Both the position numbers and the translations under genes were made by a program. A stretch of 42,698 nucleotides of DNA from Methanomassiliicoccales archaeon (lineage in GTDB: Archaea > Thermoplasmatota > Thermoplasmata > Methanomassiliicoccales > JACIVX01). The DNA lies in NCBI GenBank assembly GCA_038850735.1, contig JAWCLO010000012.1, positions 1 through 42,698 on the forward strand. Reading direction: 5' to 3'. How positions within the stretch are numbered: the stretch's first letter is position 1; each line of letters opens with the position of its first letter. The notes beneath the pieces were generated by a model. That model saw only the letters and a program-made list of their open reading frames with translations, was not told the DNA's origin and made no database searches. Shown here piece by piece: positions 594 to 22,383 of the stretch.

Positions 594-3500
594 CTATTTC
601 TTGTTTTGTTTTCCTCTTTTCTGTATGATAATAAATACAATGGCGACTGTGGCGATAATGATGATAACGCCAGTGATCAGTGGTATATGATCTGTATCTT
701 CTGCTCCTCCTTCAATAATAATTTCGGCATTCATCAGATTGGTCCAATTATTGGGATAGATGATCAGCGTTTCATAAGGTCCGATCTTGATTCCAGATTT
801 CCTGCAAGAGGGTAATGCATCTAAGGTTCCATTTATTTCATCCCAAATTAGGTGACATAATACGTTTGTCTGGAATTCCACATCAAACACAAAGCTATGA
901 GGTCCGTTGTTGCGAAAGACAAGGCAGTTGTAATCCGCCGTAACATTAATTACAGCTTCTGAATCACTAAAAATTGTTGCATTGAGAATCTTATAAACTC
1001 GTTCTTCGTGCTGGAAACGCTTTACCTGTGTTGCTGAATATTTCTTAAAATTATCTGAGGTCTCATACTTTATTATTCCCATGAAGGGGTTATTGTTTTC
1101 GTGCACGAGTTGAATGACGTCACTGCTTCCCTCTTCAACTTGAGCGTTCTCAATAGCATAAGCTGCACGAGCGTCGGAAAACATAGTCCAGTTATACGTA
1201 CCTCCTCCTTTTCCAATGACATGTGTTGTGTAGTTTCCCAGCGGAAGGTAGTATGAATTGTATTGCGATCCAACCAAATCTTCATAGAGAACAAACGGAG
1301 TTGCGTTCTCAATCTCTACAACCCAGGTTCCGTCGTCCCTCACCGAAACCTCATTGCCATCCTCATCGGTAACATATCCTGAGGCGCTTCCATAAATCAA
1401 ATTGAATACGCCATCAAGTGTCGTGGGAAGAGTTCTGTCTCCAAGAACTATGCTTGAAGGAAGAAACACCATACCCATTGGTCCACCCCACCATCCTTCT
1501 TCTGGTCCAATATAATAAGACCATTCCCAATAAAGGCCACTTCTATCGACCTCTATATATGGTGGATGATTCATTCGCTCATCGGAACTGTTGAGCTGAT
1601 TTCTTGCATTCCTTAACGTGGACCATTCCGGTTTATTGATATCATACACGTAAATTCGCGTATGAGTTGAATCAACATCAACAACTTCATAAGGCACAAC
1701 CGCGTGACCAGATGCACCTTCCGATAACAATATTATACCGAGATCTCCTGAATCAACGGCTACATTGATCGAGTAAAGTACTAGACCCAACCCAGAAAAA
1801 CCGTATATCGATGGAGCAAGGTTATCAAGATGCTGTGAAATGATATAATGAAGAGATTCAGCTGAAACTTGAACGCCGTGCATGTAATCTATTCGCTCGC
1901 GAAGCGCGCCGGAAAGGACGAAATCATCGATGTTGTAAACCCCAGGTTGCATTTCGCTTGTCTCGATGAGATCATGGTACAATTCAAGACTCACTGCGCT
2001 AAAGCCGACACATTCACCGTGCCTCGCCAAATAACAATATGCTGCTCCATAATACAAAGCAGCAAATGGATCGGGGCATATCGGTTCCTCAACAAGATAT
2101 CCCCAGCAATCCCAACCGTCCCAGGGTGTCCAGTAAGGAAGACCCAAACATATCCACAGATTGATATATACATCGTTACCAAATGTTCTACGGTAATCGC
2201 CATTCTCCCAAACAAGCCATGGGTATGATAGAAAGTATTTGTTTGTATTACTCATATTAAATCCATAATCAAGACAATACCAAGGCTTCGGATAAACATC
2301 GAACTCCTTTTCTGAGACGGCGGTACCCGCTCTCGTCGTGACCGTGATTCGCGAAGGAATTGTTGGGATTCCCGTAACTAATGTGAAGTTGAATTTATGG
2401 TCTGGGTCTGGGTTCAATGAGGTTGGCGCGGTCGGCACGGTGGCAGTTAGAACACCTCCGATTCGGACGGCACCCCCCATGAGATTTGATCCCGAAATCG
2501 ATACCTGCATTCCTTCCCAAGCTCCGCTCGGCGAGAAGCTAGTGATTGAAGGAGCCAATGGAGCGACCCTAACACTTGTGCACTTGATGTTACCTGAATA
2601 ATGATCCACAAGTATCTCCTTACCGTCGCTCACCGTCAGTCTAAATATCAGGATTACCTCGTAATCCAACACGTTTGGCGTAAATGTTGGTGAGTATGCA
2701 GTAGGATCAGAAAGTACTACACGAAAAGGTGTGGTGTCAATCTGCTCCCATAAATATTCTAGAGCATCCCCGTCGGGATCGTTACTATGCGATCCATCAA
2801 GGACAACCATATCTCCTTCGTTGACGGCTATCGAATCTGGAGCTACAGCCTCAGGTGGTCTATTCCAAACGGTTGTCGTAAATATATAGAAAGGATTTGC
2901 ACTCTGAGAGAATTCAATTGACGTGTCAATAAGAATCATTTCAATTTTAATCTTTGCTTCAAAAGTGTCTACCGATGGACTCGTCCATAAATAACTCCTG
3001 GCACCAGGGGTGAGGTCATCAATTTTATTCCATGTGCTTCCGTTATCAATGGATAGTAAAATGCGGAATTTGCATATTCCTCCGTAATAGCAGGTAGCAG
3101 TCCAAAGTACTTCATGAGTCTCACCACCTCTATACACAATCGCACCCGGTACGTAAGGATTGGGACTTATTAACCCCACAGAGGGCACATCCGAGTTTGC
3201 TACGATTCGAAAATCATCGTCACTTGTATCGTTCGCCAGGTGGGTAAATTCCATATAAAGAGCGATGACCTTGATTTTCACATGATCATACGAAGTCACA
3301 CCTGATGGTAACATTGGAACATTCCATTCGTAGACAAAATCATTCTCTGTTGAGGCTACAAGTATATGCCAAGTAGAGCCTCCATTTGTAGAGAATTCGA
3401 TGGAAATCGCAGTTAATACACCTATGGAATCTTCGGATGTAGCCCAGCGAATGTCGTAAATCTCACCCGCAATTAATGCTTCACCGCCGTTCGGCGAGAT

Positions 3501-4238
3501 CAACTGAATCCAGGGCGATCTTATTTCGAATTCGCTGCTCTCAGCATAGGCAAGCAGCACTCCTCCGGGCTCAGTCCAAGCATTAATTTTCAACTGACCG
3601 AAGGCATGCTCAAAATATCGAGGAGTGAACCAGCAACCACCCTGTGATGGATCGATGTTGCTGTACGCTATGCCTACTTCTGTCCAATCGCCCCATATTG
3701 ATCCTTGCCGATAGCGGGCCATTAAACTCAATGATTCCACTTTGCCAATACCATCGTAGAGATACCAGTGAATAGAATAGTACTGTGCGCTGCTCATCAC
3801 GGATGGCAATTCCGCGAATTCTAGCCACACGCCTGGCAAGATTGTGAAAAAGTCATCACTGATGTCCTCACCCAGCACGGTTGATGATGGATCAGACGAC
3901 CGCAATTCAACTCTAACAAGCAACTTTGAGGAATTGATATTGTTGGGAATTTCCCAGGCAAAGAGCTGGCTTCCCCCCGTGTTTGCCTTCTCACCTATAT
4001 AGTTCGGAAAGCTCAACCCCCCGTCCGTTGAGTAATAAATTCCCACCACACCCCCTGTTGATGCTGTTGAAAAAATGACCTTGCGAGTCTCTCCTCCCAT
4101 CCAATTCTCGCCACCATTTGGTGAGGCCAGCGTGATGGGAGGTTCAAGTGCAGCATCCGAAGATGATAACGGTATATTAATAGAAACAAGAAACACAACC
4201 AGACTTATTAGAATGGAATAACATTTGGCGCATGACAT
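594..4238 (-). CDS. Large membrane-anchored extracellular protein with Ig-like, PKD and TIG modules and a Cys/His/Asp papain-like domain
   Basis: 1214 aa. In order: signal peptide (1-29); three Ig-like repeats marked by SPNGGE or related motifs near 39, 248 and 358; a PKD-type module (about 460-550, with DGSHSNDPDGD); an IPT/TIG-type module (about 561-648); a domain with GECVGFS (Cys743), SGHAVVP (His845) and YVYD (Asp866); a C-terminal beta-rich domain (about 1040-1175); and one transmembrane helix (about 1184-1205) ending in a basic tail. The Cys, His, Asp order and spacing resemble papain-fold peptidases (C1/C39-like), but activity is inferred and no standard family was recognised. The same core occurs in the 966-aa protein at 6303-9203, transcribed divergently. 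The ATG at 4238 directly follows a GGGGGT run. Likely role: a cell-surface adhesin-peptidase. Confidence 0.85.
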   Translation of the reverse strand: MSCAKCYSILISLVVFLVSINIPLSSSDAALEPPITLASPNGGENWMGGETRKVIFSTASTGGVVGIYYSTDGGLSFPNYIGEKANTGGSQLFAWEIPNNINSSKLLVRVELRSSDPSSTVLGEDISDDFFTILPGVWLEFAELPSVMSSAQYYSIHWYLYDGIGKVESLSLMARYRQGSIWGDWTEVGIAYSNIDPSQGGCWFTPRYFEHAFGQLKINAWTEPGGVLLAYAESSEFEIRSPWIQLISPNGGEALIAGEIYDIRWATSEDSIGVLTAISIEFSTNGGSTWHILVASTENDFVYEWNVPMLPSGVTSYDHVKIKVIALYMEFTHLANDTSDDDFRIVANSDVPSVGLISPNPYVPGAIVYRGGETHEVLWTATCYYGGICKFRILLSIDNGSTWNKIDDLTPGARSYLWTSPSVDTFEAKIKIEMILIDTSIEFSQSANPFYIFTTTVWNRPPEAVAPDSIAVNEGDMVVLDGSHSNDPDGDALEYLWEQIDTTPFRVVLSDPTAYSPTFTPNVLDYEVILIFRLTVSDGKEILVDHYSGNIKCTSVRVAPLAPSITSFSPSGAWEGMQVSISGSNLMGGAVRIGGVLTATVPTAPTSLNPDPDHKFNFTLVTGIPTIPSRITVTTRAGTAVSEKEFDVYPKPWYCLDYGFNMSNTNKYFLSYPWLVWENGDYRRTFGNDVYINLWICLGLPYWTPWDGWDCWGYLVEEPICPDPFAALYYGAAYCYLARHGECVGFSAVSLELYHDLIETSEMQPGVYNIDDFVLSGALRERIDYMHGVQVSAESLHYIISQHLDNLAPSIYGFSGLGLVLYSINVAVDSGDLGIILLSEGASGHAVVPYEVVDVDSTHTRIYVYDINKPEWSTLRNARNQLNSSDERMNHPPYIEVDRSGLYWEWSYYIGPEEGWWGGPMGMVFLPSSIVLGDRTLPTTLDGVFNLIYGSASGYVTDEDGNEVSVRDDGTWVVEIENATPFVLYEDLVGSQYNSYYLPLGNYTTHVIGKGGGTYNWTMFSDARAAYAIENAQVEEGSSDVIQLVHENNNPFMGIIKYETSDNFKKYSATQVKRFQHEERVYKILNATIFSDSEAVINVTADYNCLVFRNNGPHSFVFDVEFQTNVLCHLIWDEINGTLDALPSCRKSGIKIGPYETLIIYPNNWTNLMNAEIIIEGGAEDTDHIPLITGVIIIIATVAIVFIIIQKRGKQNKK

Positions 4239-4588
4239 ACCCCCAATATCCCCCCTAATCTAGATGACATTCAGAGCTGCCCAGATCTTTCTTATTGGGC
4301 ATAGCCATCCAATAAACAGATGCGATCCAAAAAAGGAAAACATCCGCTTATTGCGGAAAATATAATTTCGAACATTATAAATAATTTTTCTTATGATTGG
4401 GATTCTAATCAGGTTCTAAAAAAATCTTAAGCACTCTAATTCCGTAAGTTCATAACTTTCAACGGAGGCTCAAGAGCAATCAATTAAAAGGTGCTTCCTA
4501 GAGGATACATGATCAATCGAAAACTTTGATTTGAAATTGATGTCTCATATTTCATAACAAATCGGCAGGCAGGCTATTGGGCAACCTC
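4239..4588. other. 5' region of the large surface-protein gene
   Basis: There is no gene. A G-rich leader immediately precedes the start at 4238 (minus strand, AGGGGGGATATTGGGGGT, ending at 4239). A TATA-like TTTATAAT occurs near 4374-4387 on the minus strand, implying a leader of about 100 bases if used. The AGGGGGG-TATT core also occurs before the divergent paralogue at 6303. Confidence 0.4.
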
Positions 4589-4873
4589 TCAAAGAATGTC
4601 GGACCTGTACTGAGTTTCCCGATCGCAATCGTACTGCTGCTGATAAAAAAGAACCCCGACTGTTACGACGAGGAACAGTGTGATGAATGCAATTTGTATG
4701 CTGTATATAAGTGCAATCGATTCCAGCACAATCTGGCGTGAACTAGCGGGACAATAAGTAGCATAATTATTACGGGAATCGATGCAATGGTTGGCATGAC
4801 TACAACCGAAAGCGCAGGACTCGTCGACATGCCCGTACTCCTCATTGATGCAACTGTTTCGGTAGCAAATCAA
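4589..4873 (-). pseudogene. Possible remnant of a small membrane-protein gene with a frameshift
   Basis: Two overlapping minus-strand frames each contain half of what looks like one hydrophobic protein. The frame starting at 4845 gives a helix-like ALSVVVMPTIASIPVIIMLL. About 30 codons on, the other frame continues with SSRQIVLESIALIY and a second helix, AFITLFLVVTVGVLF. Joining them needs one frameshift near 4740-4750. No family is recognised, and two hydrophobic stretches in different frames could be coincidence. It sits inside a 2 kb gene-poor interval, which fits decay. Confidence 0.3.
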
Positions 4874-6302
4874 TCAATGTCCCTTCCATCGAATTCATAA
4901 TGAAACTCGTATTTGGCGATGAAAAAGATCTCATTCCTACTCACGAGGGGAGGAAGCCAGCTAAGATATGGTTTCAAATGATGGTGAGATAAAAGGCATG
5001 CGAAATACCAATTGCGTTGATATACATGCCGCCCTTAGTGAGCACCCTTTCCAATCATCTTTAATGCCATCCGCTGATCAATAGAAGTGGACGTTATGAT
5101 TGGTGTTATATTGAAAAGGCTACAAGCTTCCAATTGTAGAAGCCTTTGAGTACTTTTTAAAGATAGAATGGCATAATGAGATTAGACGGAAAGTACGGGA
5201 TGCAATTTAATAAGACCCAAAAGGGCCTCTTATGGAAGATCGATGAAGGATCAAGCATCATTTTCTTCCTTTTCTTAATTTGGTAAAGATGAAGAGAAAT
5301 AGAATGGGCAATGAAGATGAACAACATGACTTCATAAAGGTTATTATGTCGCAACTCGCCAAGGGGCAGGACGATTGAAAGGCCCACGAAACATTTTGAA
5401 ATTGTGTCATTCTAAAGGAATAAAAATGTTCTAGGTATTTTTCAAAACGACTTTTCTTTAAATCCGAAGCTGGAAAGAGTATGACCGAAAATCCGATATT
5501 CACTTTTGTTAAAAATGGATTCCAACAAAATAAATAAGTAAGTGGCGCATCCCAATATGAGCCCAATCGTTTCTTAGATGCATAGTGTCATAGCATTGAT
5601 GCCCAACGCCCTTTAACACTCGCTACGAGGGGAATATTTCCATCTAGATTGTGGTCGTAGCTGCCGAGACAATACACAACCAGTTCTCTAAGGTATCCCA
5701 AATATAGCCAGTTGCCATCAACTGGTGGCAATGTTTCAAAAGAATGATGCCGTAACAAGATCGCTCATTTAGATACGAAATCCAATGCTTTCCTGCCTGT
5801 GAATCAATTTATTGCTTATGATAAAAAGCAACTAGAAGTGCAAAGAACAATACACGAGATCCGGACGGATCATCGTAAATATCATTCCAAGATCTTTTGC
5901 AATACTGGATGCGAAACGCTGTAAGTAGAGCCGTTAATGGGCACCACCATAGTGCCTATCAATGCTATAGCGATTACTATCCATCAGCATGAATCGTGAC
6001 CTTTTCCGCCAGGACCGTTCTTTATTAATGATCCGAGTTTATAAAGGGTAGAGCATTCTAGATGGTAAATGCCAAAGTGAGGCGGAGTCTTACGGATTCA
6101 TTAGCCCGTTATATTCAATTTAGATGGTAAAAAATGAATCAGACTAAACGTGATTTGTCTTTAATCTCCCTTATGAATTGCTATTTCAAACTTCCTATTC
6201 ATTTACACTAATTTAGTAATATAAAACGCGCCTTTCATCGAAATATTAAAATACGTTATACGAAAAATGTATTCTTGAGGGGGGGTATTAACTATTAGTT
6301 GC
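4874..6302. other. Gene-poor interval; promoter of the 6303 gene at its right end
   Basis: No intact gene could be supported in about 1.4 kb. One plus-strand stretch near 5128-5209 reads as a helical peptide (LPIVEAFEYFLKIEWHNEIR) but has no start codon and follows a stop, so it may be a decayed fragment. The clearest signal is TATAAAA at 6220-6226, which would place transcription start near 6250, followed by a G-rich AGGGGGGGTATT leader at 6279-6290 before the gene at 6303. Confidence 0.35.
6220..6226 (+). promoter_or_regulatory. TATA box for the surface-protein operon
   Basis: TATAAAA in an AT-rich context, about 80 bases before the ATG at 6303. It is the only good TATA-like match in the preceding few hundred bases on this strand. 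The predicted transcript would include the G-run leader. Confidence 0.45.
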
Positions 6303-9203
6303 ATGCCCATTTTAACCTCAAAATTTCATCATTTTTCGAAAATGTGGACTTTTTTGATTTGCGATGCCATTATCATAAGCCTTTTTTGTTCCGGTATTGT
6401 TCTGAAACCTGCAAGTGGTGTTTCATATAGCGAAATAAAAATCTGGGCAGAATGGGACGACACTTATATTTTCGAGCTCCAAAAGGGTCAACATTACGAA
6501 ATGGAAGATTATCTGAAAGTAGGGAATTACACCGAGTTTGAGTTTCCAGGCAGGTACTGCTCTCTTATTCATTTTGATATCAGTGTATTACCAGCTGATT
6601 CCGAAATTCTATTTGCAAGTCTAAATCTATACAAACTTGATGGAATCGATGATGTAAAATTGTATTTGATTTCAGAATTCTGGGAGGGTGCGACGACAAC
6701 ATGGCAAAATCAACCTGACCTATATCTATCTGAACCATATACCCCACTGATTTGGGATATTGGTCATCTTACCGGGGCAATCGGCAAAAACATAACTTCA
6801 TGGGTTAGGGCCTGGTTTAATGAACAGGCTTCGATGAATGGTATTTACATCGAACCTTATCCATACAATATTGTGAGAGAAAGTGGCACTAGATTCTATA
6901 GTTATCAGGGAGCTTCCGTTACTGACGGCAATTATACACCGTATATTTACGTAAGATATAGATCCTCATCTCCTATACAGCAGCCTCCGCCTCCTCAACC
7001 TCCTCCTTGGAGAGATGATGTGACTCCCCCGCAGGTGTCGATTGAGGTGATTCCATCCGAGGATATCAGACCCACAGATACAGTCTCAGTAACAGTTTCT
7101 GCAATTGACGACATATGTCTGTACAGAGTTCAGTTGTTCATCCAAGGGGTAATGGAGGAAGAAATGCTGGTACCATATGAGGAGACCAATATCACCAACT
7201 TAGGAATTACATACGAGTCTGAGTTTTCGTATGGAGAAGTTTATTTAATGGCCGTTGCGATGGATAAAAGGACAAATACGCAGGCGACACAAAAGAACAT
7301 ATATATAGGCAGTCGAACACCACCGACCCTGCAGTTGTATGTTAATCTGGAGAGAGTATTTCCCAATGATGATTCTCAAATAGAGATTACAGTCATAGCG
7401 GACGATCCGGAGGGAATAGTATCAATCACTGTAGGCGCTGGTGCAGGTTATTATTCACCAGAACTTTATCCAGAATATGGTGAAATTCTTGAATTCACGG
7501 ATCCTTTTCCTACTCACGTTGCTCAGAAAATAATCGTAAGGAATTTGAATATCCCCTGGCCATCTGGAACACCGCTACCCGATGCAGTTAACACAAAGCT
7601 TATAAGATGCATGGCTTCCACAGTCGATGTGGAGCACTTGTCCAGCGATGTCGTAACTGAGGAAATTCAAGTGATCAGGCCTTACCAATGGGACTACGGT
7701 ATCCCCTACCACAATCCTGGAAATGAGCGGCTTGGATGGGAAAGAATGGTTGATGTTTTTGGCAGGGGAGAATTGAGGGGGCCCGGTGATCAAGATTGGT
7801 GGTGGACGATTCTTGCGCAACTCTGGAAGAAGGTCTTCGAACTCATGTGTGAACCTGGCGAGTGCTTTGGCATGTCTTCACTCAGCATATGGCATTATGA
7901 TCATCGGGTTCCAATACCAGACAATCTGACAGCACACACTGGTGATCAGCACTGGCCATATCGACCTGGTTACATCGACAACGAATATCAAAATTTGAGC
8001 AATTATGCGAGGAGATTTATTCAGGCACATCAGGGATCTCAAATTTCTCAGGAACTTCTAAGTCTTTATGCAGCTCAAATAAAAAAACAACTTCAGTCAG
8101 GAAACTTGCGTAGCTTCGTCAACAATGAACTGAGACAACTCGTTCGAGATGTTAAATACGGAACACCAGGGATACTATGCGTGGCAGAATATCGAGGGTT
8201 AGATGAGGGGATTATGGAATGCATAGGGGCTCATGCGGTTGTGCCCTGGTATGTAGAAGAGCATCCAGGCTGGTGGAAAATATACGTCTATGACTCCAAT
8301 AGGCCGTATGCCTCGGTCATTTTGGCAACAGATTACTATAATTATTCAAATTATCCTTATATTATCCTTGACGAAAATGGATTTTCATGGATCCACGAAG
8401 GTGGAGAGCTTTGGAATGATTTTATCTGGTATGTGCCATACTCCGTGACAAATCTTACGGATTATGATCTCATCGATGGTTGGCTTGTTGCGGGCACGAT
8501 TTTGACAAGTATCTTTGTCGGAGCGGTGGCAATCACTTTGACACATTTGTTACCAATACCCTTACCTATTCCAATGCAGGCTAATCCATATGGCGGGATT
8601 CAAGGAATGATTCTGCCCTCAGATAGGGTTATTGACCTAGTTGTTAATGATACAGGTCAGGCTGAATACACGTTTATAATGAATGCGGGTCGTTCTGTAT
8701 ATGGCATTTCCAACAAATCAATAGGACATGACAGAGGAGACAATATCAGAATCGATGTTGGCAGCAATCAGTACGGTTTGGGACTTAGGCTTAAGAGCGG
8801 GGTTCAGGACGAGGATTTTTCAATGGGTATTGGTCATCGTCTCGATCTTGTAGAAAGAGAATACATTCTTGAGAATATATCTATGCAAATGGAGGGGGAT
8901 ATTGAGATACTGGCCACGGAAAATTGCATGGGACTGTGTATCAGAAACTATGGAAATTCAGAGATATCTTGTAAGGTTATTCTCCGTAGCAGCGAATCAG
9001 AAACGGTTGGTGAGGAGGAATTGACGATTGCTCCCGGCGAGGAGATCATTGTCACAGGCGATTGGACATCGCTTGGCGATGGACTTTCCATTACGAGAGG
9101 AAAAATTACAACGGGAGAATTCCCCACCGTTTTAATCTTCATTGGGGCGGTCATTGCTGTAACGGCAGTAGCTCTATTAATCTTCATAAGGAGGCGCAAA
9201 TGA
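6303..9203 (+). CDS. Membrane-anchored extracellular protein with DNRLRE-like and Ig-like domains and a Cys/His/Asp papain-like domain
   Basis: 966 aa. In order: signal peptide (about 1-40); a DNRLRE/disaggregatase-repeat-like domain (about 43-218, with SLIHFDIS, WQNQP and YIYVRY); a proline-rich linker (about 224-236); two Ig-like domains (about 243-335 and 340-457); a domain with GECFGMS (Cys521), GAHAVVPW (His644) and YVYDSNRP (Asp664); a hydrophobic stretch (about 727-757); a C-terminal domain alignable with that of the 1214-aa paralogue; and a transmembrane helix (about 942-962) with a basic tail. The conserved Cys/His/Asp suggest a papain-like peptidase; this is inference. The ATG at 6303 has no close Shine-Dalgarno: the G-run lies about 17 bases upstream, so the start is less certain. 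The next gene overlaps by ATGA. Confidence 0.85.
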   Translation: MPILTSKFHHFSKMWTFLICDAIIISLFCSGIVLKPASGVSYSEIKIWAEWDDTYIFELQKGQHYEMEDYLKVGNYTEFEFPGRYCSLIHFDISVLPADSEILFASLNLYKLDGIDDVKLYLISEFWEGATTTWQNQPDLYLSEPYTPLIWDIGHLTGAIGKNITSWVRAWFNEQASMNGIYIEPYPYNIVRESGTRFYSYQGASVTDGNYTPYIYVRYRSSSPIQQPPPPQPPPWRDDVTPPQVSIEVIPSEDIRPTDTVSVTVSAIDDICLYRVQLFIQGVMEEEMLVPYEETNITNLGITYESEFSYGEVYLMAVAMDKRTNTQATQKNIYIGSRTPPTLQLYVNLERVFPNDDSQIEITVIADDPEGIVSITVGAGAGYYSPELYPEYGEILEFTDPFPTHVAQKIIVRNLNIPWPSGTPLPDAVNTKLIRCMASTVDVEHLSSDVVTEEIQVIRPYQWDYGIPYHNPGNERLGWERMVDVFGRGELRGPGDQDWWWTILAQLWKKVFELMCEPGECFGMSSLSIWHYDHRVPIPDNLTAHTGDQHWPYRPGYIDNEYQNLSNYARRFIQAHQGSQISQELLSLYAAQIKKQLQSGNLRSFVNNELRQLVRDVKYGTPGILCVAEYRGLDEGIMECIGAHAVVPWYVEEHPGWWKIYVYDSNRPYASVILATDYYNYSNYPYIILDENGFSWIHEGGELWNDFIWYVPYSVTNLTDYDLIDGWLVAGTILTSIFVGAVAITLTHLLPIPLPIPMQANPYGGIQGMILPSDRVIDLVVNDTGQAEYTFIMNAGRSVYGISNKSIGHDRGDNIRIDVGSNQYGLGLRLKSGVQDEDFSMGIGHRLDLVEREYILENISMQMEGDIEILATENCMGLCIRNYGNSEISCKVILRSSESETVGEEELTIAPGEEIIVTGDWTSLGDGLSITRGKITTGEFPTVLIFIGAVIAVTAVALLIFIRRRK
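9188..9194 (+). promoter_or_regulatory. Strong ribosome binding site fixing the start of the 9200 gene
   Basis: AAGGAGG five bases before the ATG at 9200, inside the last codons of the upstream gene. It rules out a longer frame that would start at 9062 and selects a start followed by a clean signal peptide. The pair is therefore translationally coupled. Confidence 0.8.
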
Positions 9204-10807
9204 CGAGATCTAGCTTGTTTTCGGTCATTAGTATATTCGCTGTCACTGCAATCCTGTTTGTGACAATCTTTCCTGCCATGTCTGGAGTTTCCGAAGCATT
9301 AATAATCGATATGCCAAATGTGATCTTTCAGGACGACTTTGAAGATAACAAATTGGACAGCTGGGAAGTAGGAGATAACAATCCATTGTCTGGTTACGAT
9401 TTTTGGGGCACTTCGCAGTATCGCGCATACAATGGAGATACGAGCGTTTGGTGTGCACAGAATGGGACTTATGGAATTTTATATTTGCCAAACTCCGTTC
9501 TTCATAAATACGATCAGAATATGAGTGCCTTTATGAGGTTGTATGTCGGCGATTTGCGTGGCTATGAATCAGTAAACTTAATATTTTACTACTGGGCACA
9601 AACGGGAACAATAAATCTCAACGATTTTTTTGAAGTAACATGCTGGACGGGGACAACGTGGATTAGGGTTTTTATGCAACCACAACCCATATCTTCTGGC
9701 TGGGAACAGGCAAACATTGAAATTCCTGTTCAGACCCAGTATATACAATTTAACTTCATCAGTGATAGCATAGTGGGATTGGGGCCGTATGAAGGCGTGT
9801 ACATCGATCAAGTCGTCTTGTTAGGCATCGATAAGAATCCGCCTAGTTCTTGCGTTGGAGAGCTTCAACCTTTCTATCGTTCGAATATTATACCAGTATT
9901 CATCTATGCGAATGATATTGGCGGTTCTGGGGTTAAATACTGTAAACTCTACTACAGATTCAATGAGTCATCCTCATATACGCTGTATGTTACTGAAGAA
10001 ACTCCCTCTGGCCTCTGGGAAACAAACGTTATTTTTTTCGATACCAACCTAGCGTGTGGAGAGGGCGTCTACGATTTCTATAGTGTAGCAATTGATTTTT
10101 GTTTGCAGGAAGAGGCGGCACCTGAAGAACCTGATGCCAGAACTGTTGTTGATCATTCAAAACCATTGGTACTTGCAGAAATAGCAGAAGAAAAGAATGA
10201 GTACGGATGGTATCGATCGGAGGTAACCATCGATCTTGCGGTAATCGATGAAATAAGTGTTGGCGGCACAATTTTCTATCGACTGGATTCGGAGGAGTGG
10301 TCAGAATATGAATCAAATATCACAATAACCTCAAGCGGTGAGCACGAGCTCCTTTATTTCGGTACTGATCGAGCGGGCAATCTAGGTATGACGAAGCGCG
10401 AGATTATTAAAATCGATTCTGAGGCACCAGCATTCATAGAGACCTCCTGTTCCGTTGACAAGGAAGAAAGAGCAGTTTCGTTAAACTGGTCTTCCGTCGA
10501 TTCGATCAGTGGCGTGCATCATTTTGAATTAATAATTGACGATGATAGTTTGTATTATAATTCCACCACAGCATCAGCTTTTGTAGACTGGCTAGGGACA
10601 GGTCATCACGAGTTGACGATCCGGGCCGTAGATTATGCGGGAAATCAAGTAGAGAAATACTACGAATTTACTTTTCCAGAAAAAGGAGAGCAGTTAGTTT
10701 TCGCGGGACTTTCAGCTACTGTTTGGGCAATAATAATAATCGCTTTGATAGCATTAACAGTCATCGGTTTCACAATGACAATGAAGTGGCGGAAACGAAA
10801 TAAATAA
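9200..10807 (+). CDS. Membrane-anchored extracellular protein with jelly-roll-like and Ig-like domains
   Basis: 535 aa. Signal peptide (1-33); a jelly-roll or ConA-like domain (about 42-210, opening with FQDDFEDNKLDSWEVG and closing with YIDQVVLLG); an Ig-like domain with paired cysteines (about 215-318); two further Ig-like modules (about 325-407 and 410-492, with RAGN and DYAGN turns typical of bacterial Ig-like repeats); a transmembrane helix (about 504-526); and a basic tail. No catalytic residues are evident, so it is probably a structural or binding partner. Its start overlaps the stop of the preceding gene (ATGA), implying co-expression and perhaps a shared surface complex. Domain names rest on sequence style, not on a profile search. 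Confidence 0.85.
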   Translation: MTRSSLFSVISIFAVTAILFVTIFPAMSGVSEALIIDMPNVIFQDDFEDNKLDSWEVGDNNPLSGYDFWGTSQYRAYNGDTSVWCAQNGTYGILYLPNSVLHKYDQNMSAFMRLYVGDLRGYESVNLIFYYWAQTGTINLNDFFEVTCWTGTTWIRVFMQPQPISSGWEQANIEIPVQTQYIQFNFISDSIVGLGPYEGVYIDQVVLLGIDKNPPSSCVGELQPFYRSNIIPVFIYANDIGGSGVKYCKLYYRFNESSSYTLYVTEETPSGLWETNVIFFDTNLACGEGVYDFYSVAIDFCLQEEAAPEEPDARTVVDHSKPLVLAEIAEEKNEYGWYRSEVTIDLAVIDEISVGGTIFYRLDSEEWSEYESNITITSSGEHELLYFGTDRAGNLGMTKREIIKIDSEAPAFIETSCSVDKEERAVSLNWSSVDSISGVHHFELIIDDDSLYYNSTTASAFVDWLGTGHHELTIRAVDYAGNQVEKYYEFTFPEKGEQLVFAGLSATVWAIIIIALIALTVIGFTMTMKWRKRNK

Positions 10808-14837: not shown

Positions 14838-15011
14838 TGCCAAGTTCTAGCTATAAGAAAAGCCAGGATTGCACTTGCCCACTCACCCAATAGATCGCTG
14901 TGCACGAGGCGATTGAAACGGCGATGAGTTTGACGAAATATCTCAAGCATCCAATTAACACCTTGAGGTACGTTACCAATTCAGTATTATCCTCTTGGGC
15001 TGAGCTTTTAT

Positions 15012-15947
15012 CTACGATCTATCAATTTGATATTCTTTTAGTTTCCCCATAGCTTTTCTTAATCCAATCAGACCATTGACAACGGATTGCACACGCACCC
15101 AGGGAATGCCAACATACATTTCGTTATCTCTCAGTTTCCCTGCGTATCTACATCCATAACATCCAAGCGAAAAATTGACATTTCCCGTTTTTATAGGTAT
15201 TGTTGTTGAGTCACCACAGCATGCTTGCATACCGGCAAAGTTTGCGACAATTCGGGGACCACCACTATCGTAAATAAGCGCGTTGGCAATCCACATGGCC
15301 TGTTTCGGGAGGCACGTTAAGATAACAACATCCGGTGGTCTATCATAGCTCTGTAATGGCCCCACCAATGTTCCAACAGCGCTACCAATATCTAACTTCG
15401 GAACTTCTGCCATAATCCTCGCAGCAGCTTCTACAGATGCTGCGAGACCATGCATATAGGGTACCTTTCCGGATTTGACTTTCTCAGGAAGGTCAGATAT
15501 GCCAAAGGCAGCTCGTGCTGCCACGCAAGCATGAGCATCAGCAGGAAGATAGAGAGAAGCCCCTAGGGATGCCATATGGACAGACACGCAATGACGCAAA
15601 GGCATTTCAGCCTTCTTAAAGTGTTGAGGTATTGAATCCGCTGGCTTTAGCAATTTTACACCAACGGGAGCTTTTCGCAGATCTAGCAATCCCACAAAAC
15701 TCTTCGATATTGCAAAGAGTTCCTTGTTGTTAAATTCTTCAGAATTGGTCAGTTCCACAGCGGGTTTGGATGGGATGGTAATTGCATGCACAGGGCATTG
15801 ATCTTCGCAGATGCCGCATAAGGAACATTGATCGGCATTCATTAGATGCGGCATATCCTCCCCTAATTCGATTGCATTATTGGGGCATATGTCGGCACAT
15901 ATTCCGCAGAGAGTACATTTGTCTGGATCAAACAATAATTTTGTCAT
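15012..15947 (-). CDS. Ferredoxin-DUF169 fusion protein
   Basis: 311 aa from the ATG at 15947. Two [4Fe-4S] motifs come first (CTLCGICADIC at 11-21, CSLCGICEDQC at 41-51), then a DUF169 (COG2043) domain with PVGVKLL, HACVAARAAFG and a late cysteine-rich stretch (QACCGD, LGCYGCR). DUF169 proteins are of unknown function and often occur near Fe-S or metal proteins; the added ferredoxin head suggests redox delivery to that domain. A TTG at 15971 is in frame but less likely. It overlaps the upstream DGC-domain gene by 20 bases and is clearly co-transcribed. The stop is TAG. Confidence 0.8.
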   Translation of the reverse strand: MTKLLFDPDKCTLCGICADICPNNAIELGEDMPHLMNADQCSLCGICEDQCPVHAITIPSKPAVELTNSEEFNNKELFAISKSFVGLLDLRKAPVGVKLLKPADSIPQHFKKAEMPLRHCVSVHMASLGASLYLPADAHACVAARAAFGISDLPEKVKSGKVPYMHGLAASVEAAARIMAEVPKLDIGSAVGTLVGPLQSYDRPPDVVILTCLPKQAMWIANALIYDSGGPRIVANFAGMQACCGDSTTIPIKTGNVNFSLGCYGCRYAGKLRDNEMYVGIPWVRVQSVVNGLIGLRKAMGKLKEYQIDRS

Positions 15948-16335
15948 ACCATCGCCTTTCAATTTCCTCAATTACTCTTCTCTTTATTCTCTCAACTTCT
16001 TTCTTATTGAAATCCGGCGTCATGTTCTTTTTAATTCCGCAGTCTTTTGTTAGTTCGATCGATACATCAGGTGATCGTTCTCTTTTTTGCAATATTTCCG
16101 AAGCGCATTTCATCGAGCATCCATCTAAAACAACTACAAAATCAGCGCTCTTCAAATTTTCAAGTGCCGTTTTTCTTCTAAGACCGAGCGCAGGTAAGCA
16201 GAGGAGTTGATAATCATCCAGGTGCTCAAGAACAAGTTCTCTAACTGCATGATCAGACATCGTGCCCGTATTCGATGCACCACTGCAGCTTATGAGTAAA
16301 ATCTTCTTATGGGCTTTTTTTAGAGTTTCTTGCAT
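15928..16335 (-). CDS. DGC-domain putative zinc-binding protein
   Basis: 135 aa. LLISCSGASNTGTMSDHAV near the N-terminus and VVLDGCSMKCASEIL in the middle (the Asp-Gly-Cys that names the DGC family) identify a putative zinc-binding protein. The C-terminus is a charged helix. A paralogue lies at 18848-19267. It is the first gene of a two-gene operon with the ferredoxin-DUF169 fusion. The ATG at 16335 lies about 27 bases from a TTTAAATA box, so the mRNA is probably leaderless. Operator-like half-sites flank that box. Function unknown; metal or sulfur handling is inferred from residues and neighbours. Confidence 0.8.
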   Translation of the reverse strand: MQETLKKAHKKILLISCSGASNTGTMSDHAVRELVLEHLDDYQLLCLPALGLRRKTALENLKSADFVVVLDGCSMKCASEILQKRERSPDVSIELTKDCGIKKNMTPDFNKKEVERIKRRVIEEIERRWYDKIIV

Positions 16336-16338
16336 GGT

Positions 16339-16389
16339 ATTTCAAAATGTTTTGGAGGTATTTAAAAGTATTTAAAATTATTTTGAAAT
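16339..16389 (-). promoter_or_regulatory. TATA boxes flanked by widely spaced operator half-sites upstream of the DGC-DUF169 operon
   Basis: Two TTTAAATA boxes (16359-16366 and 16369-16376, minus strand) lie 27 and 37 bases from the start codon. They are bracketed by a perfect 10-base inverted repeat, ATTTCAAAAT (16339-16348) and ATTTTGAAAT (16380-16389). The arms contain the TTTCAA/TTGAAA half-sites seen at three other promoters, but 31 bases apart instead of 5-6. That layout fits a looped or cooperative repressor, or a degenerate variant. Confidence 0.5.
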
Positions 16390-17028
16390 GACCTTATCAA
16401 TCTTCATCAAAAAAACAACGAGGGCGACCATAGCAGCATGAGAAATTACAAGAATATTTAGATCGGATCCTGATTTTTGATTCAATCTTCAAACTAGGCA
16501 TTCGAATCGCTAGTTTCGTTTCGAAAAATTCGGTTTCACACTACAAGAAAGATGGAAGCCGGTATCAAGACATGAGATTATATGCAACGAGTGAATGAAA
16601 CTGCACATGCTTTACTGTAAATTAAATCTCTATTTCCAATACGTGTTTTGATATATTTGGAATTACGAGACAAATCGTACGTGAAATCAATGCTCAGAAA
16701 ATGATCGGTTTTTAATCATTGCAGATTGATCACAATGCTGAAGAATGGAGTGAGTAGTCACAGATGAATATTGAAGAACGATTTCTGGGTGCTTATGATT
16801 CACCAATTCCATCTAATTAAATCAACAAAGCCATATATTTGAGATGTATTGAAGGAAAAATTCTTAATAGCTAATTCTTAGAACTTGTAGACACGTGTAA
16901 ACCAATGAATGATGTTCGTTTCTACTAAAACTTATGTATTAATCGAAATCGACCTATTAGCGAAAACTTATACACTATCATCGTGGAAAAAAATGATGAA
17001 TAAAGTCATTACAAAAGAGGGACTAACC
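16390..17028. other. Intergenic leader of the cysteine desulfurase gene; no other gene seen
   Basis: No gene supported. A 40-codon in-frame extension of the cysteine desulfurase from 16909 is open but unlike the family and lacks a Shine-Dalgarno. GAGG at 17017-17020, eight bases before the ATG at 17029, supports the shorter start. No operator palindrome like those of the neighbours was found here. Confidence 0.45.
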
Positions 17029-18186
17029 ATGATCAAAAGGGTTTACTTCGACAACAGTGCAACGACTAGAATGGATGATAGGGTACTAGAGGCAATGTTT
17101 CCATTTTTTTGCGAAAAGTTCGGAAACCCCTCAAGTTTGCATTCTTACGGTAGAGATGCGGATGATGCGATTGAGGAAGCTAGAGAGATCATCAGTGAGT
17201 CACTAGGAGCCACGTCGAGGGAGATAGTATTCACATCAAGTGGCACTGAATCGGACAATCTCGCAATAAAAGGGGTGGCTTTTGCTAATCGAAAACAAGG
17301 AAATCATATCATCACGAGTTCAATTGAACATCATGCCGTGCTACATACATGTCAGTACTTGGAATCGTGTGGGTTCAGAATAACATATCTTCCAGTTGGC
17401 AATAATGGGTTAGTCTGTGAAGAGCACCTGAAAGAAGCAATTGATCGTGAGACGATTCTTGTTTCAATAATGGCAGCTAATAATGAAATTGGCACTATTC
17501 AGAAAATTAGAGCTTTTGGAGAAATAGCGCACGACTATGGTGCGCTTTTTCATACAGATGCAGTTCAAGCTTTCCTGAAGATTCCATTAAACGTCCAAAG
17601 GGATGAATTTGACCTCCTTTCGATCTCTTCACACAAGATTCATGGTCCGAAGGGGGTAGGAGCGCTCATGGTCAAGAAGGGTGTGAAAATAGAGCCACTA
17701 CTTCATGGAGGAGGCCATGAAAGGGGTTTGCGTTCATCCACTGAAAACGTAAGCGGCATTGTTGGGTTTGGTAAAGCCGTAGAAATAGGACTAGAAAGCA
17801 TGAGCGCTGATGTAGAAAAAATGAAATCAATGAGAGAACGCATTATAGAAGGGGTTCTTTCTGAAGTCAGCGGCTCACATCTGAACGGTCACAGGTACAA
17901 GAGATTGTGCAATAATGTCAATCTGAGATTTGATTTCACTGAGGGTGAAGCACTAGTATTAGAACTGGATGCGAAAGGGATTGCGACCTCAACAGGATCA
18001 GCGTGTTCTACAAGAGATCCTCGCCCTTCACATGTACTCATCGCGTGCGGATTGAGACCTGAAGAAGCAAGATCTTCTCTTAGAGTAAGTCTAAGTAGGA
18101 TGAATACCCACGACGAAGTTGATTACTTCCTTGAAGTCATGCCAGAAGTTGTTGAAAAAGTGCGTATGGTTTCACACGCAAAATAG
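17029..18186 (+). CDS. nifS: Cysteine desulfurase (NifS/IscS family)
   Basis: 385 aa, normal for the class I NifS/IscS family. It has VYFDNSATT at the start, the PLP lysine in SSHKIHGPKG (Lys203), the SIEHHAV and HTDAVQ cofactor-binding segments, and the catalytic cysteine in STGSACST (Cys326). It takes sulfur from cysteine as a persulfide for Fe-S clusters and tRNA thiolation. No IscU-like scaffold is adjacent. The THUMP-less ThiI-like enzyme at 25050 could be one acceptor, which is inference. The ATG at 17029 was chosen from the GAGG spacing and the family N-terminus. Confidence 0.92.
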   Translation: MIKRVYFDNSATTRMDDRVLEAMFPFFCEKFGNPSSLHSYGRDADDAIEEAREIISESLGATSREIVFTSSGTESDNLAIKGVAFANRKQGNHIITSSIEHHAVLHTCQYLESCGFRITYLPVGNNGLVCEEHLKEAIDRETILVSIMAANNEIGTIQKIRAFGEIAHDYGALFHTDAVQAFLKIPLNVQRDEFDLLSISSHKIHGPKGVGALMVKKGVKIEPLLHGGGHERGLRSSTENVSGIVGFGKAVEIGLESMSADVEKMKSMRERIIEGVLSEVSGSHLNGHRYKRLCNNVNLRFDFTEGEALVLELDAKGIATSTGSACSTRDPRPSHVLIACGLRPEEARSSLRVSLSRMNTHDEVDYFLEVMPEVVEKVRMVSHAK

Positions 18187-18847
18187 CTTTTCTGAAAATA
18201 TGAACAAATAAAAATATAGCTGCTTCGAAAAGCTTCTCTTGTAATTTTTAGAATAGAGAAATAGAATACTGCAATTAATTATTTATGGTACTGTGACTGT
18301 TGTTTCTCGATTGCCTGCGCCATACGGACATAAAACAATGAGGTCACACAAAAGAATGAATTAAACGAATGTTGTATAGGGGAGCACATGAACCTGTTTT
18401 CTTTGCATCATGGAAAAGCATGTAAAGATATGATTATCGCTTCTGAAAAGAAGAGTTCTCATGGCAATTCATATAGAAAAATCAAGATAAAAACAACTTC
18501 CCAGTGCTAGAATTTATAGGATAATTAGATTTTGAACGTCCATTTCCTCCATAGAAGACTTAATAAAGTCAAGGGCAAGTGATTGATAGATAAAAACCCC
18601 CTGTTTCAGAAATTCATTTCTCACGACTGTCAAGTAGCCACATGTGAGTGCGCAATGAGAATCCAAGGCAGGGAAAGGATCATTCGTTGGGCAATAGAAC
18701 CAAAAAATTTCCGTTAAGGCTAAAAACGATCGCACTCGTACTATAAGAGTGATTTTTCTTATAGGAAGAATTCGATCTTAGACTTCCCGCTGCTTGCCCG
18801 CGATATTTCTAACACTATTATTTCTAGATTAGGATTAATATGTAGAA
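18187..18847. other. Intergenic, no gene supported
   Basis: This AT-rich interval lies between the desulfurase gene and the end of the minus-strand permease operon. A 73-codon minus-strand frame at 18514-18735 begins with GTG, has no Shine-Dalgarno and no recognisable family; it was left out. A small repeat of the sequence around GCTTCGAAAAGCTT near 18220-18235, just after the desulfurase stop, might be a weak hairpin. Confidence 0.35.
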
Positions 18848-19267
18848 TCACTCAGTGTTCCGGGATATTGAAATTGCTCTTGATGGCATTGGAAGCAGAC
18901 TAATAACATGTTTTGAAACATGTTCAATATCCTTCTCTACAAAGGCGTTTAGATCGTATGATTTCTTTATCCCAAGATCCGTAATCACTACATGTTTCGT
19001 TGGCACTAACCCATGATGCTCAAAGGATTTCTTCCCACACGCTAATTGACACCCATCAACAACAATAGTGAATTCTGCATTTTCTGCGGATTTTACTATT
19101 CCACTCACGTGCCCTCCAATGCCAGCAATGCATGCCATTCGGGCCTTTCCCTCGGTCGCTAATCTTTTGGCCACCTCGTTCGCAATCTGTCCGACATTCG
19201 ACCCGCCTGAACAAGGATAAATAAGGACTGCACCACCACAGAGACACGCACCCTTATCTTGAGACAT
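18848..19267 (-). CDS. DGC-domain putative zinc-binding protein (second copy)
   Basis: 139 aa. YPCSGGSNVGQIANEVAKRL and VVDGCQLACGKKSF give the DGC signature. An N-terminal CLCGG adds two cysteines not present in the paralogue at 15928-16335. It is the last gene of a four-gene operon: ArsP-like permease, 86-aa protein, redox-active disulfide protein, then this. The context suggests a role in metal or metalloid binding or delivery; no enzymatic role is known. Spacing to the preceding gene is 13 bases. Confidence 0.82.
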   Translation of the reverse strand: MSQDKGACLCGGAVLIYPCSGGSNVGQIANEVAKRLATEGKARMACIAGIGGHVSGIVKSAENAEFTIVVDGCQLACGKKSFEHHGLVPTKHVVITDLGIKKSYDLNAFVEKDIEHVSKHVISLLPMPSRAISISRNTE

Positions 19268-19280
19268 TTATTACCCCCTT

Positions 19281-19520
19281 TCATAATGCTGACTTAATCA
19301 TTGATTTGATTTCATCCAACGAAGGCACCCTACCGACAGCCCTTGCTTCGCCATTAATATAAAGTGCGGGGGTCATCATAATACCCCTTTCTGTAATTTC
19401 GTTCAAATCTTCCACCTTTACCACCTCCGCTACAACTCCCAGCTCTTCAACTGCTTGAAGAACCAATCTCTCTAACCTCTTGCATTTCATGCATCCCATT
19501 CCCAGTACCTCTATCTTCAC
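19281..19520 (-). CDS. Small redox-active disulfide protein (thioredoxin-like fold)
   Basis: 79 aa. C-x-x-C in GMGCMKCKRLE (Cys10, Cys13), then a MTPALYINGE cis-proline loop, match the redox-active disulfide protein 2 family (TIGR00412-like). It is typically found beside ArsP-type permeases, as here. It probably reduces or hands over a thiol-bound ion in the cytosol; the substrate is unknown. It sits in the permease operon, four bases after the 86-aa gene. Confidence 0.88.
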   Translation of the reverse strand: MKIEVLGMGCMKCKRLERLVLQAVEELGVVAEVVKVEDLNEITERGIMMTPALYINGEARAVGRVPSLDEIKSMIKSAL

Positions 19521-19524
19521 AAAA

Positions 19525-19785
19525 TCACCTCCTCTCCCTTTTCTTGAAATATTCCTTCAATAGCGCAGCTTCGTACTCCTTTTCAGCATCAGATGGCACA
19601 TAGTTATAGATTCTCACTCGCTTCAGTAGTTCCTTTCTGAGAGCGTTTTCCTCTTCGATGCCTAACTTCACAACTTGATCTATGACTTCGTCGAGTTGGC
19701 TGATGCCTATCAAGCAACCGCCGATGTCAATCTTTCTCACATTTCTCGCAGATGATTCGGGACAACATGTTCTTTTCTCTGCCAT
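19525..19785 (-). CDS. Small hypothetical protein in the permease operon
   Basis: 86 aa. A CC pair at residues 7-8 and a single Cys in GGCLIGIS precede a long helix and a very basic tail (KKRERR). No family is recognised with confidence. Its fixed place between the permease and the disulfide protein, with gaps of three and four bases, suggests an accessory subunit or metallochaperone for the transporter. Confidence 0.75.
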   Translation of the reverse strand: MAEKRTCCPESSARNVRKIDIGGCLIGISQLDEVIDQVVKLGIEEENALRKELLKRVRIYNYVPSDAEKEYEAALLKEYFKKRERR

Positions 19786-19788
19786 ACT

Positions 19789-20856
19789 TTATCCCACTAT
19801 CATTCCATAGATGAAACCTGCAAGTGCAGACAAGATTACAACAGTAAACCAATATATCGTGGTTTTTTTCGCACCCATGATCCTATACAAAACTGCAATA
19901 GATGGAAGACTAGTTGTTGGACCGCTCAATAAGAGGCTCAATGCTGGACCAGCAGCCATGACACCGCTTGAATAGCCAAAAGTGGTCCCAATGATAGGCA
20001 CTTCAAGAAGCGTTGGCATATAGAGAATTGCACCTATGAATGATGCTAATAGATTTGAAGATATGGAATTGTTGCCGAGATATGGCCTGAACATCTCTGG
20101 TGGTAGGAAATATGCAATTATACCAACAATAAAAGTCCCTGCGATAAGAATCGGAAAAATCTTCTTTGTCAAATCCCACGTTTCATAAGCCCAATTGGTG
20201 ACTTCATCTCGTTCGAAGTAGTATATCAGAAGTGCGGCGATAACAACCGTCAGTAAATAAACTGTCGCGAGTTTTAACACCCAATCAATTTTGGATGCAG
20301 CAATGATCAAAATCAATATGAGAATGACAAAGAACATCGCGGACGCCCATCTTGGTCTAGAATTTGCCGAGGACGCCGGCAAAAATTCCTTCTTTTCTTG
20401 TATTAGAGAGACATCGTGACGCTTAAAAATTGTCGCCATTATTAACCCAACGATTATGGACAGGGCAACAGCACTTGCAGCCCTTGCAAACCCCAGATCA
20501 TATCCGAGAACTTGGGCGGTGTAAACGATTGCAAGGATATTAATGCCAGGTCCAGCGAATAGAAATGTAATCGCCGGCCCTATGCCACTTCCTTTTCTAT
20601 ATATTCCTGCAAACAAGGGCAGAATGGTACAGCTACAAACCGCCAAAACAGCTCCGGAAACTGATGCTACTGAGTATGACTTGTATCTTTTTACGGTAGG
20701 ACCAAAATATCTCAATATGGCATCTTTTTTTACAAATGCAGCAATTGCGCCAGCAATAAAAAATGCTGGAATAAGACAAGTAAGGGTGTGCTCGGAAAGA
20801 TAGTTCATCACGTTGCTTAAACCAGCGATAAGCGCATCAACCAATGGATTCGCCAT
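19789..20856 (-). CDS. ArsP/UPF0718-type permease
   Basis: 355 aa with about eight to ten transmembrane helices. Two half-repeats are visible: the first with VCSCTILPLFAGIYRKGSG (Cys74, Cys76) followed by LFAGPGINILAI, the second with MPTLLEVPIIG and LLSGPTTSLPS. This is the DUF318/COG0701 permease family, which includes ArsP (organoarsenical efflux) and metal exporters. The substrate is likely a thiol-reactive metal or metalloid, given the CSC motif and the divergent ACR3 gene. It is the first gene of a four-gene operon. The ATG at 20856 lies 10 bases from a TTTCAA-N6-TTGAAA palindrome. Confidence 0.88.
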   Translation of the reverse strand: MANPLVDALIAGLSNVMNYLSEHTLTCLIPAFFIAGAIAAFVKKDAILRYFGPTVKRYKSYSVASVSGAVLAVCSCTILPLFAGIYRKGSGIGPAITFLFAGPGINILAIVYTAQVLGYDLGFARAASAVALSIIVGLIMATIFKRHDVSLIQEKKEFLPASSANSRPRWASAMFFVILILILIIAASKIDWVLKLATVYLLTVVIAALLIYYFERDEVTNWAYETWDLTKKIFPILIAGTFIVGIIAYFLPPEMFRPYLGNNSISSNLLASFIGAILYMPTLLEVPIIGTTFGYSSGVMAAGPALSLLLSGPTTSLPSIAVLYRIMGAKKTTIYWFTVVILSALAGFIYGMIVG

Positions 20857-20866
20857 GATCTTACCA

Positions 20867-20884
20867 TTTCAACTTTTTTTGAAA
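20867..20884. promoter_or_regulatory. Operator candidate of the permease operon
   Basis: TTTCAA-CTTTTT-TTGAAA, a perfect 6-base inverted repeat 10 bases before the permease ATG. A TATA-like TTAATAAA on the minus strand near 20897-20905 would place the transcription start inside the palindrome, a position suited to repression. Confidence 0.6.
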
Positions 20885-21199
20885 GTATCCACGTTGTTTA
20901 TTAATGTTTCGCCGAATGACGTGCCTACGACCGAATCAATTGCAGAATCATCTGCGAGAACTTGATCTACATTTACTCTTTGAGTTACCAGACGGATTGT
21001 ACTAATTACGAGCCAGTCGCGATTATCAATCCTTCAAGCGAATTTTGCAGTAAATAATGTAAGAAGCAGCATTCCGCCGTTCAAACTATTGCATTATTCA
21101 ATCTGATCAAATTAAACAACAAGCGCATTTGGAACCCATTATGCTTTTTTGCATAACAATCGATCCCATCAATAATAAGATCGTCCTTTCTGCAAAGCA

Positions 21200-21207
21200 T
21201 TTAAATA
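21200..21207 (+). promoter_or_regulatory. TATA box of the ACR3 gene
   Basis: TTTAAATA on the plus strand. The expected transcription start, about 27 bases on, falls inside the palindrome at 21218-21242, giving a leader of about 60 bases before the ATG at 21295. Confidence 0.55.
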
Positions 21208-21217
21208 GTGTAAATGA

Positions 21218-21242
21218 TTTTCAATTTTTTTGAAATTGAAAA
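21218..21242. promoter_or_regulatory. Operator candidate of the ACR3 gene
   Basis: A 10-base perfect inverted repeat, TTTTCAATTT and AAATTGAAAA, with a 5-base spacer. It contains the same TTTCAA-N5-TTGAAA core (21219-21235) as the site at 13878 and nearly the same as the site at 20867. It overlaps the predicted transcription start. Confidence 0.65.
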
Positions 21243-21294
21243 AGAATTGATATAACCGTTCATTGAACGAATGAAGGAACTAGGTGGAAAAATT

Positions 21295-22383
21295 ATGCCA
21301 GAACAGATTTCAAAGAAGCTTTCATTTCTGGACAGGTTCCTAACATTATGGATATTTTTAGCGATGTTCATTGGTGTAGCTTTGGGAGCAATATTTCCTG
21401 CTGTAGCCGATGTTCTCAATTCGATGAGTATAGGCACGACTTCAATTCCAATCGCAATTGGTCTGATCCTAATGATGTATCCACCACTTGCAAAAGTTAA
21501 GTACGAAGAATTATCAAAGTTGACCAAAATGCCAGAATCTAAATTAATGTTCGGAACCTCTATTGCACTGAATTACTTGGTCGGGCCTTTCTTGATGTTC
21601 ACGCTTGCTTGGATATTCCTTCCAGATCTGCCTGAATACAGAATTGGATTAATTTTAACAGGTTTAGCTCGATGTATTGCCATGGTTCTTGTATGGAATC
21701 AGCTGGCTGAGGGGGATTCAGAGTACGCTGCAATACTTGTGGCCATCAATTCAATTTTCCAGATCATCATGTACTCTTTCTATGCTTACTTCATGATATT
21801 CGTGCTTTCGGAATTTATAGCACCAGGATCTGGAGTTGCAGTTAATATATCGATTTGGGAAGTTGCGCAGTCCGTTCTCATTTATTTAGGGATTCCTTTT
21901 CTTGCAGGGATCATTACACGTTATGCGCTGCTTCCGAGAAAAGGGGCCGAATGGTATGACAAGAAATTCATACCCAAGCTCGGTAAAGTTTCCCTGCTTG
22001 CGCTTCTTTTCACAATAGTGGTTATGTTCTCACTAAAGGGAGAATACATAATTCAGCTCCCGCTCGATGTAATGAGAATTGCAATTCCACTAATCCTCTA
22101 CTTCACAATAATGTTCTTACTTTCGTTCCGACTGTCCATCAAACTCAAATTCGACTATCCACATGCAACTGCTCAGAGTTTCACTGCTGCCAGCAACAAT
22201 TTTGAACTTGCAATTGCTGTTGCCATTGCAATCTTTGGAATTGGATCTGGCGTAGCCTTTGCTACTGTAATAGGTCCTCTTGTTGAGGTACCTGTACTAA
22301 TAAGTCTAGTAAATGTTGCATTTTGGATAAGAAAGAGGTATTATGACTCAAATGGAAAAGTTAAGGTAACTTCCCCAGCATGA
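21295..22383 (+). CDS. acr3: ACR3 family arsenite efflux permease
   Basis: 362 aa from the ATG at 21295, with ten predicted transmembrane helices. ACR3 hallmarks are [14 protein letters not shown] at the start, [18 protein letters not shown] with the conserved cysteine (Cys127), and [18 protein letters not shown] near the end. It exports As(III), and in some members Sb(III), driven by the proton gradient. An in-frame ATG at 21271 exists, but GGTGG seven bases before 21295 and the family N-terminus favour the shorter form. No ArsR or ArsC is visible. It is divergent from the ArsP-like permease operon, and both promoters share a palindrome. Confidence 0.92.

Follow-up and report, generated by a model that had tools for sequence, protein, structure and literature searches.

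In the papain-like superfamily the N-terminus of the core helix always holds the Cys, the canonical His lies on strand 2 and strand 3 usually carries the third residue; transglutaminases, acyltransferases and deamidases are among its members (PMC10318531). Peptidase C39 and Peptidase_C39_2 (PF03412, PF13529) show the order Cys-His-Asp, with a G-H His strand followed by the Asp strand. MEROPS C58 (PF03543), with its AvrPphB-type, C58-like MARTX MCF and lymphostatin protease domains, is found in injected effectors and carries AHA or GHA and then a YDPN-like Asp strand, with a Cys-His spacing of ~100–112 and a His-Asp spacing of 15–19. The C58 triad predicted for the MARTX MCF effector is C3351/H3463/D3482 (PMC6315884), and the oxyanion-hole Gln that papain and C58 enzymes have ahead of the Cys is Q1470 in lymphostatin, where the Cys is C1480 (PMC12198386). 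Within the order Methanomassiliicoccales itself, papain family C1 is represented by very large, secreted surface proteins that combine a papain-like enzyme with extra modules (L077, L079 and relatives).

The window analysed here is a whole contig of 42,698 nt (JAWCLO010000012.1) from a Methanomassiliicoccales genome of 1.66 Mb (GCA_038850735.1) in which McrA is present. The original prediction described two divergent ORFs, 1214 aa on the minus strand and 966 aa on the plus strand, and these were confirmed at 594–4238 and 6303–9203. They are referred to as proteins A and B, and the gene following B as gene C. The features are as follows.

594–4238 (−): protein A, 1214 aa, with signal peptide, Ig-like repeats, PKD domain, papain-like core, C-terminal domain and C-terminal transmembrane (TM) segment (ORF list, profiles, BLASTP and hydropathy)
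4149–4238 (−): protein A N-terminal hydrophobic segment, residues 6–24, signal peptide-like (hydropathy)
2619–2837 (−): protein A PKD domain, residues 468–540 (PF22352, score above the cut-off)
1389–2171 (−): protein A putative papain-like core, residues ~690–950 (alignments of homologues)
2010–2012 (−): protein A Cys743 codon, putative catalytic (BLASTP and alignments)
1704–1706 (−): protein A His845 codon, putative catalytic (BLASTP and alignments)
1641–1643 (−): protein A Asp866 codon, putative catalytic (BLASTP and alignments)
684–1388 (−): protein A C-terminal domain common to B, residues ~951–1185 (BLASTP)
624–680 (−): protein A C-terminal TM anchor, residues 1187–1205, basic tail KRGKQNKK (hydropathy)
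6303–9203 (+): protein B, 966 aa, with signal peptide, DNRLRE/CBM96 domain, Ig-like domain, papain-like core, C-terminal domain and TM segment (ORF list, profiles, BLASTP and hydropathy)
6456–6950 (+): protein B DNRLRE domain, residues 52–216 (NF033679 and CBM96, both above the cut-off)
7800–8537 (+): protein B putative papain-like core, residues ~500–745 (alignments of homologues)
7863–7865 (+): protein B Cys521 codon, putative catalytic (BLASTP and alignments)
8232–8234 (+): protein B His644 codon, putative catalytic (BLASTP and alignments)
8292–8294 (+): protein B Asp664 codon, putative catalytic (BLASTP and alignments)
8484–8540 (+): protein B internal TM-like hydrophobic segment, residues 728–746, with none seen in A (hydropathy)
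8580–9131 (+): protein B C-terminal domain common to A, residues ~760–943 (BLASTP)
9132–9188 (+): protein B C-terminal TM anchor, residues 944–962, tail RRRK (hydropathy)
9200–10807 (+): gene C, a surface protein with OmpL47-type repeats and a C-terminal TM segment (start placed at 9200; the ORF as listed begins upstream, at 9062)

The probable ATG of gene C (9200) overlaps the stop codon of protein B (ATGA) and is preceded by GGAGG; given the overlap, B and C are likely to be translationally coupled. The divergent A and B genes are separated by ~2 kb (4239–6302) with no convincing gene, tRNA or Rfam match, and no RNA gene or tRNA was found anywhere in the window.

BLASTP aligns residues 727–1210 of A with 505–966 of B (E 2e-7, 21 % identity). 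The C-terminal halves alone score 43.1 bits; when the C-terminal half of B was shuffled 1000 times, the highest score was 27.3 bits. By these comparisons A and B are true homologues across the core and the C-terminal domain. The motifs on which the original prediction was built lie where it had placed them, GEC at 741/519, HAVVP at 845/644 and YVYD at 863/661 (A/B), and thus the numbering Cys743/His845/Asp866 and Cys521/His644/Asp664 is exact, as are the His-Asp gaps of 21 and 20. Two of the five motifs claimed to be shared are nevertheless judged spurious once homologues are added to the alignment. The supposed GM-[VI]-[FL]-LPS element falls out of register: GMVFLPS of A aligns to FIWYVPYSV of B, and ILPSD, from the ‘GMILPS’ of B, aligns to YYLPLGNYT inside the C-terminal domain of A. 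As for the NC-x-x-[LF] segment, the domain around it is homologous in A and B, but the Cys is missing from orthologues (e.g. ‘GIMIYNNGPHKF’, ‘SLVFFNNGPHSF’). The N-terminal modules do differ as described, with PKD and weak Ig-like matches in A and DNRLRE/CBM96 in B, although the TIG domain proposed for A could not be recovered: the TIG profile gave no match in A and no more than a sub-threshold match in an orthologue.

Cys, His and Asp occur in this order in all 30 complete homologous domains inspected, even where identity elsewhere in the domain is ~20 %; a homologue lacking the Cys or the His would have spoken against the original prediction, and none was seen among the 30. The Cys-His spacing is 91–123 residues and the His-Asp spacing 20–22, except for ~16 in the L058 type. 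A 17-row alignment of the core has 13 invariant columns (G93, C95, G97, G140, Q142, G186, H197, V200, P201, Y215, D218, N220 and P245), while G10, C12, G14, P35, H120 and D141 are invariant when near and remote members are aligned together in 10 rows. Six remote homologues keep GxCxG, H and YD, and the triad is also kept in seven complete matches outside the profile-building set. A conserved succession of Cys, then His, then a third residue is that of the non-permuted papain-like (clan CA type) superfamily, and both order and spacing in the A/B core fit such enzymes. No conserved Gln or Asn suited to an oxyanion hole was found shortly upstream of the Cys among 23 sequences; the invariant Gln of A and B sits downstream of the Cys and is lost in several remote members. 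An upstream oxyanion-hole Gln is not universal in the papain-like superfamily, so its absence does not exclude membership.

Pfam and NCBIfam searches of A, B and their homologues returned no family covering the core, in agreement with the original prediction that it could not be assigned to a named family. Peptidase_C39_2 was the only Pfam family to match several members of the mixed near/remote set (3 of 10, best E 0.0077; 0.0058 elsewhere), and the curated cut-off of PF13529 was reached by no member, the best values of 0.0058–0.0077 belonging to some members only. In hhalign comparisons with four C39 peptidases of the same order, the remote set scored 37.0 against 10.6–14.0 for shuffled or reversed C39, and the whole set 27.6 against controls of 10.7–20.7; the reversed controls gave 13.8 and 20.7, respectively. 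The aligned part runs from a helix through a turn into the His strand and the Asp strand, both in register, with a helix-turn (‘G.P’) ahead of the His strand aligning as well. Only this His-Asp half aligns, and in it the His and Asp strands appear homologous to those of Peptidase_C39_2. However, C39 domains are shorter, have a CG[AP]-type helix start and belong to an ABC transporter or double-glycine leader context that the A/B core lacks. The C39 likeness is best regarded as a lead rather than as membership. A C39 role on bacteriocin leaders was rejected for A and B, no transporter or precursor gene having been seen alongside.

Likeness to C58 lies in the AHA/GHA and YDPN-like strands and in the spacing. 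Four weak matches were obtained in the PDB with the mixed profile (E 0.18–0.58, not significant alone), the best being RTX effector proteins aligned at ...GHA...YDPN; protein B and the 17-row profile gave none by sequence. Unlike C58, the A/B core has no Gln ahead of the Cys, no member searched matched PF03543, the best PDB E value is 0.18, and the hosts are archaea with membrane-anchored surface proteins. The C1 papains differ in their Cys-His-Asn arrangement (NSWG) and in being recognised by PF00112, which did not match the A/B core; there the third residue is the Asp of YVYDxN and no Asn (NSW) is present. Hhalign scores with C1 papains were near background. In several genomes of the order, very large surface proteins (L075–L077, L079, L081, L083) combine a papain-type (C1, NSWG) domain with additional modules, fn3- or MAM-like stretches among them. 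All individual links to known papain-like families are weak (E 0.006–0.2). AlphaFold models from the two sequences of A and B placed His and Asp on successive strands, at pLDDT values of 36 and 39, too low for use; Foldseek with the pLDDT 39 model returned nothing below E 0.3, a result without meaning on a model of such low confidence.

The reading favoured here, at a probability of roughly two in three, is that A and B are enzymes exported to the cell surface and anchored in the membrane, which have a papain-like (clan CA type) Cys-His-Asp core and act as peptidases. The surface-anchored papain-like enzyme of the original prediction is thereby retained on the strength of the signal peptide, the C-terminal TM segment, the kept triad and the C39 profile likeness, though without two of its motifs and without a recent module swap. 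The N-terminal stalk and the carbohydrate- or protein-binding modules would hold a substrate close to the cell. The Cys that opens the core helix (GxCxG[MF]S) would lose its proton to the His of the HAVVP strand, held in orientation by the Asp of the following strand (YVYDxN). The Cys would then attack a peptide (or isopeptide) bond to give a thioacyl-enzyme released by water. The core most likely represents an apparently undescribed enzyme family within a known superfamily, and no new principle is implied. Searches of titles and abstracts on papain-like or Methanomassiliicoccales surface peptidases found no description of it.

The same chemistry could in principle join surface proteins instead of cutting them, the core being an active papain-like transferase such as a transglutaminase-like or transpeptidase-like cross-linker or an acyltransferase. 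The breadth of the superfamily allows for this, a cross-linker would suit fixed multi-domain surface anchoring, and one genome of the order encodes a papain-like acyltransferase of the BtrH type, for which C39_2 gives a score as well. Still, no transglutaminase or acyltransferase family was matched in the profile searches, and C39 peptidases come closest in profile comparison, which makes a transferase unlikely.

Across its homologues the core comes with six or more different accessory modules. Several families of the phylum have full-length A-type proteins (Ig-like, PKD, C-terminal TM). By hydropathy, A, B and nearly all complete orthologues carry a signal-peptide-like segment and a TM segment at the C-terminus. 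Among remote homologues the modules are PD40 propellers (L061, L062), SBBP-type propellers (L063) and parallel beta-helices (L064, L066), with none recognised in L058. The seven further complete matches add zinc-ribbon plus TM and an apparent LamG-like module (modules named by eye). In L106–L110, L112 and L114 the cores lie in proteins of ~735–831 aa, one of them partial; several have a zinc-ribbon (CxxCG...CxxCG) or a Pro/Gln-rich stretch at the N-terminus, followed by one TM helix, and from this layout they are taken as a second topology of the same enzyme domain. As the same core occurs with different modules across the phylum, it is probably the modules that determine the substrate.

This variability also bears on an autoprocessing or shedding protease, which would act solely on its own polypeptide or a neighbouring surface protein and so free the N-terminal binding modules. 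In both A and B the core does sit between binding modules and membrane anchor, and the nearest PDB sequence matches are RTX effectors, of which the MARTX MCF effector autoprocesses (PMC6315884). Yet no conserved cleavage-like site was identified, and the free variation of accessory modules from one homologue to the next points to no fixed cis-substrate; such a restricted role is very unlikely. Least probable is a binding module without catalysis in which Cys, His and Asp are structural or metal-binding: fold and activity are predictions and the canonical oxyanion Gln is absent, but at ~20 % identity little survives besides the triad and nearby glycines, one Cys, one His and one Asp spaced by ~100 and 20 are typical of papain-like enzymes, and the strands with His and Asp can be aligned to those of C39.

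As to the exchangeable modules, the original prediction supposed that binding modules had been swapped. No recent exchange between the two genes is indicated, as the A and B architectures each recur elsewhere in the phylum. In a genome of another class (G119), a DNRLRE-plus-Ig protein reaches the start of the core and is then broken (L036:1309–2841), and the remainder of the core lies on a separate contig directly behind an apparent transposase fragment (L035:262–984). Apparently these are one B-type gene broken by an insertion element; with its halves on different contigs, the single gene is a reconstruction. The core of G119 groups with B in the tree (support 95/91), both branches being long. 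Protein B is accordingly taken as an old lineage rather than a fresh swap.

Relatives were sought by profile in 390 genomes of the phylum: a two-row profile found them in 15, a 17-row profile in 20 and the mixed near/remote profile in 28, belonging to 23 genera. One of the 15 (L017, genome G098) was a chance match to a beta-propeller and was dropped. No relatives were found in the genome contigs collection, with either a single-protein or a two-row alignment query, and no credible relative was found in the viral contigs, phages and plasmids searched. Within the order the near form is confined to 5 of 147 genomes, and both genomes of the same genus lack it. In one of these (G003) gene order is conserved up to the match of window positions 11.7–12.4 kb, beyond which unrelated genes stand in place of C, B and A. 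Together these observations make the A/B/C locus look like a lineage-specific island of surface proteins at the contig end. No synteny was found between the window locus and other homologue loci, nor any gene neighbours hinting at a substrate. Further along the window, positions 15000–22400 encode a ferredoxin-type protein, a class-V aminotransferase (cysteine desulfurase-like), small Cys-rich proteins, an ArsP-type permease and an SBF-family transporter, a cluster resembling an arsenic/sulfur handling island. A Nuo/Fpo-like complex is also encoded in the window, and McrA was found in 26 of 31 sampled genomes of the order.

More tentatively, A and B may belong to an unnamed family of surface cysteine enzymes that extends through the phylum of Thermoplasmatota-type archaea, with methanogens among the hosts. 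A single papain-like core would there be fitted with exchangeable heads for binding (Ig/PKD, DNRLRE, PD40 or SBBP propellers, beta-helix, LamG-like, zinc-ribbon plus TM) and serve as a general surface tool against external proteins or other cells. For uncultured archaea, MEROPS and Pfam matches are the usual grounds for inferring extracellular proteolysis; in Thermoprofundales, for example, C11, C25, C10, C13 and M09B extracellular peptidases were recognised in this way (PMC6461988). A surface cysteine-enzyme family invisible to these libraries would escape such surveys. The A/B family is found in a methanogen order for which protein digestion would not be expected, and presents a reusable, putatively catalytic core with exchangeable accessory modules.
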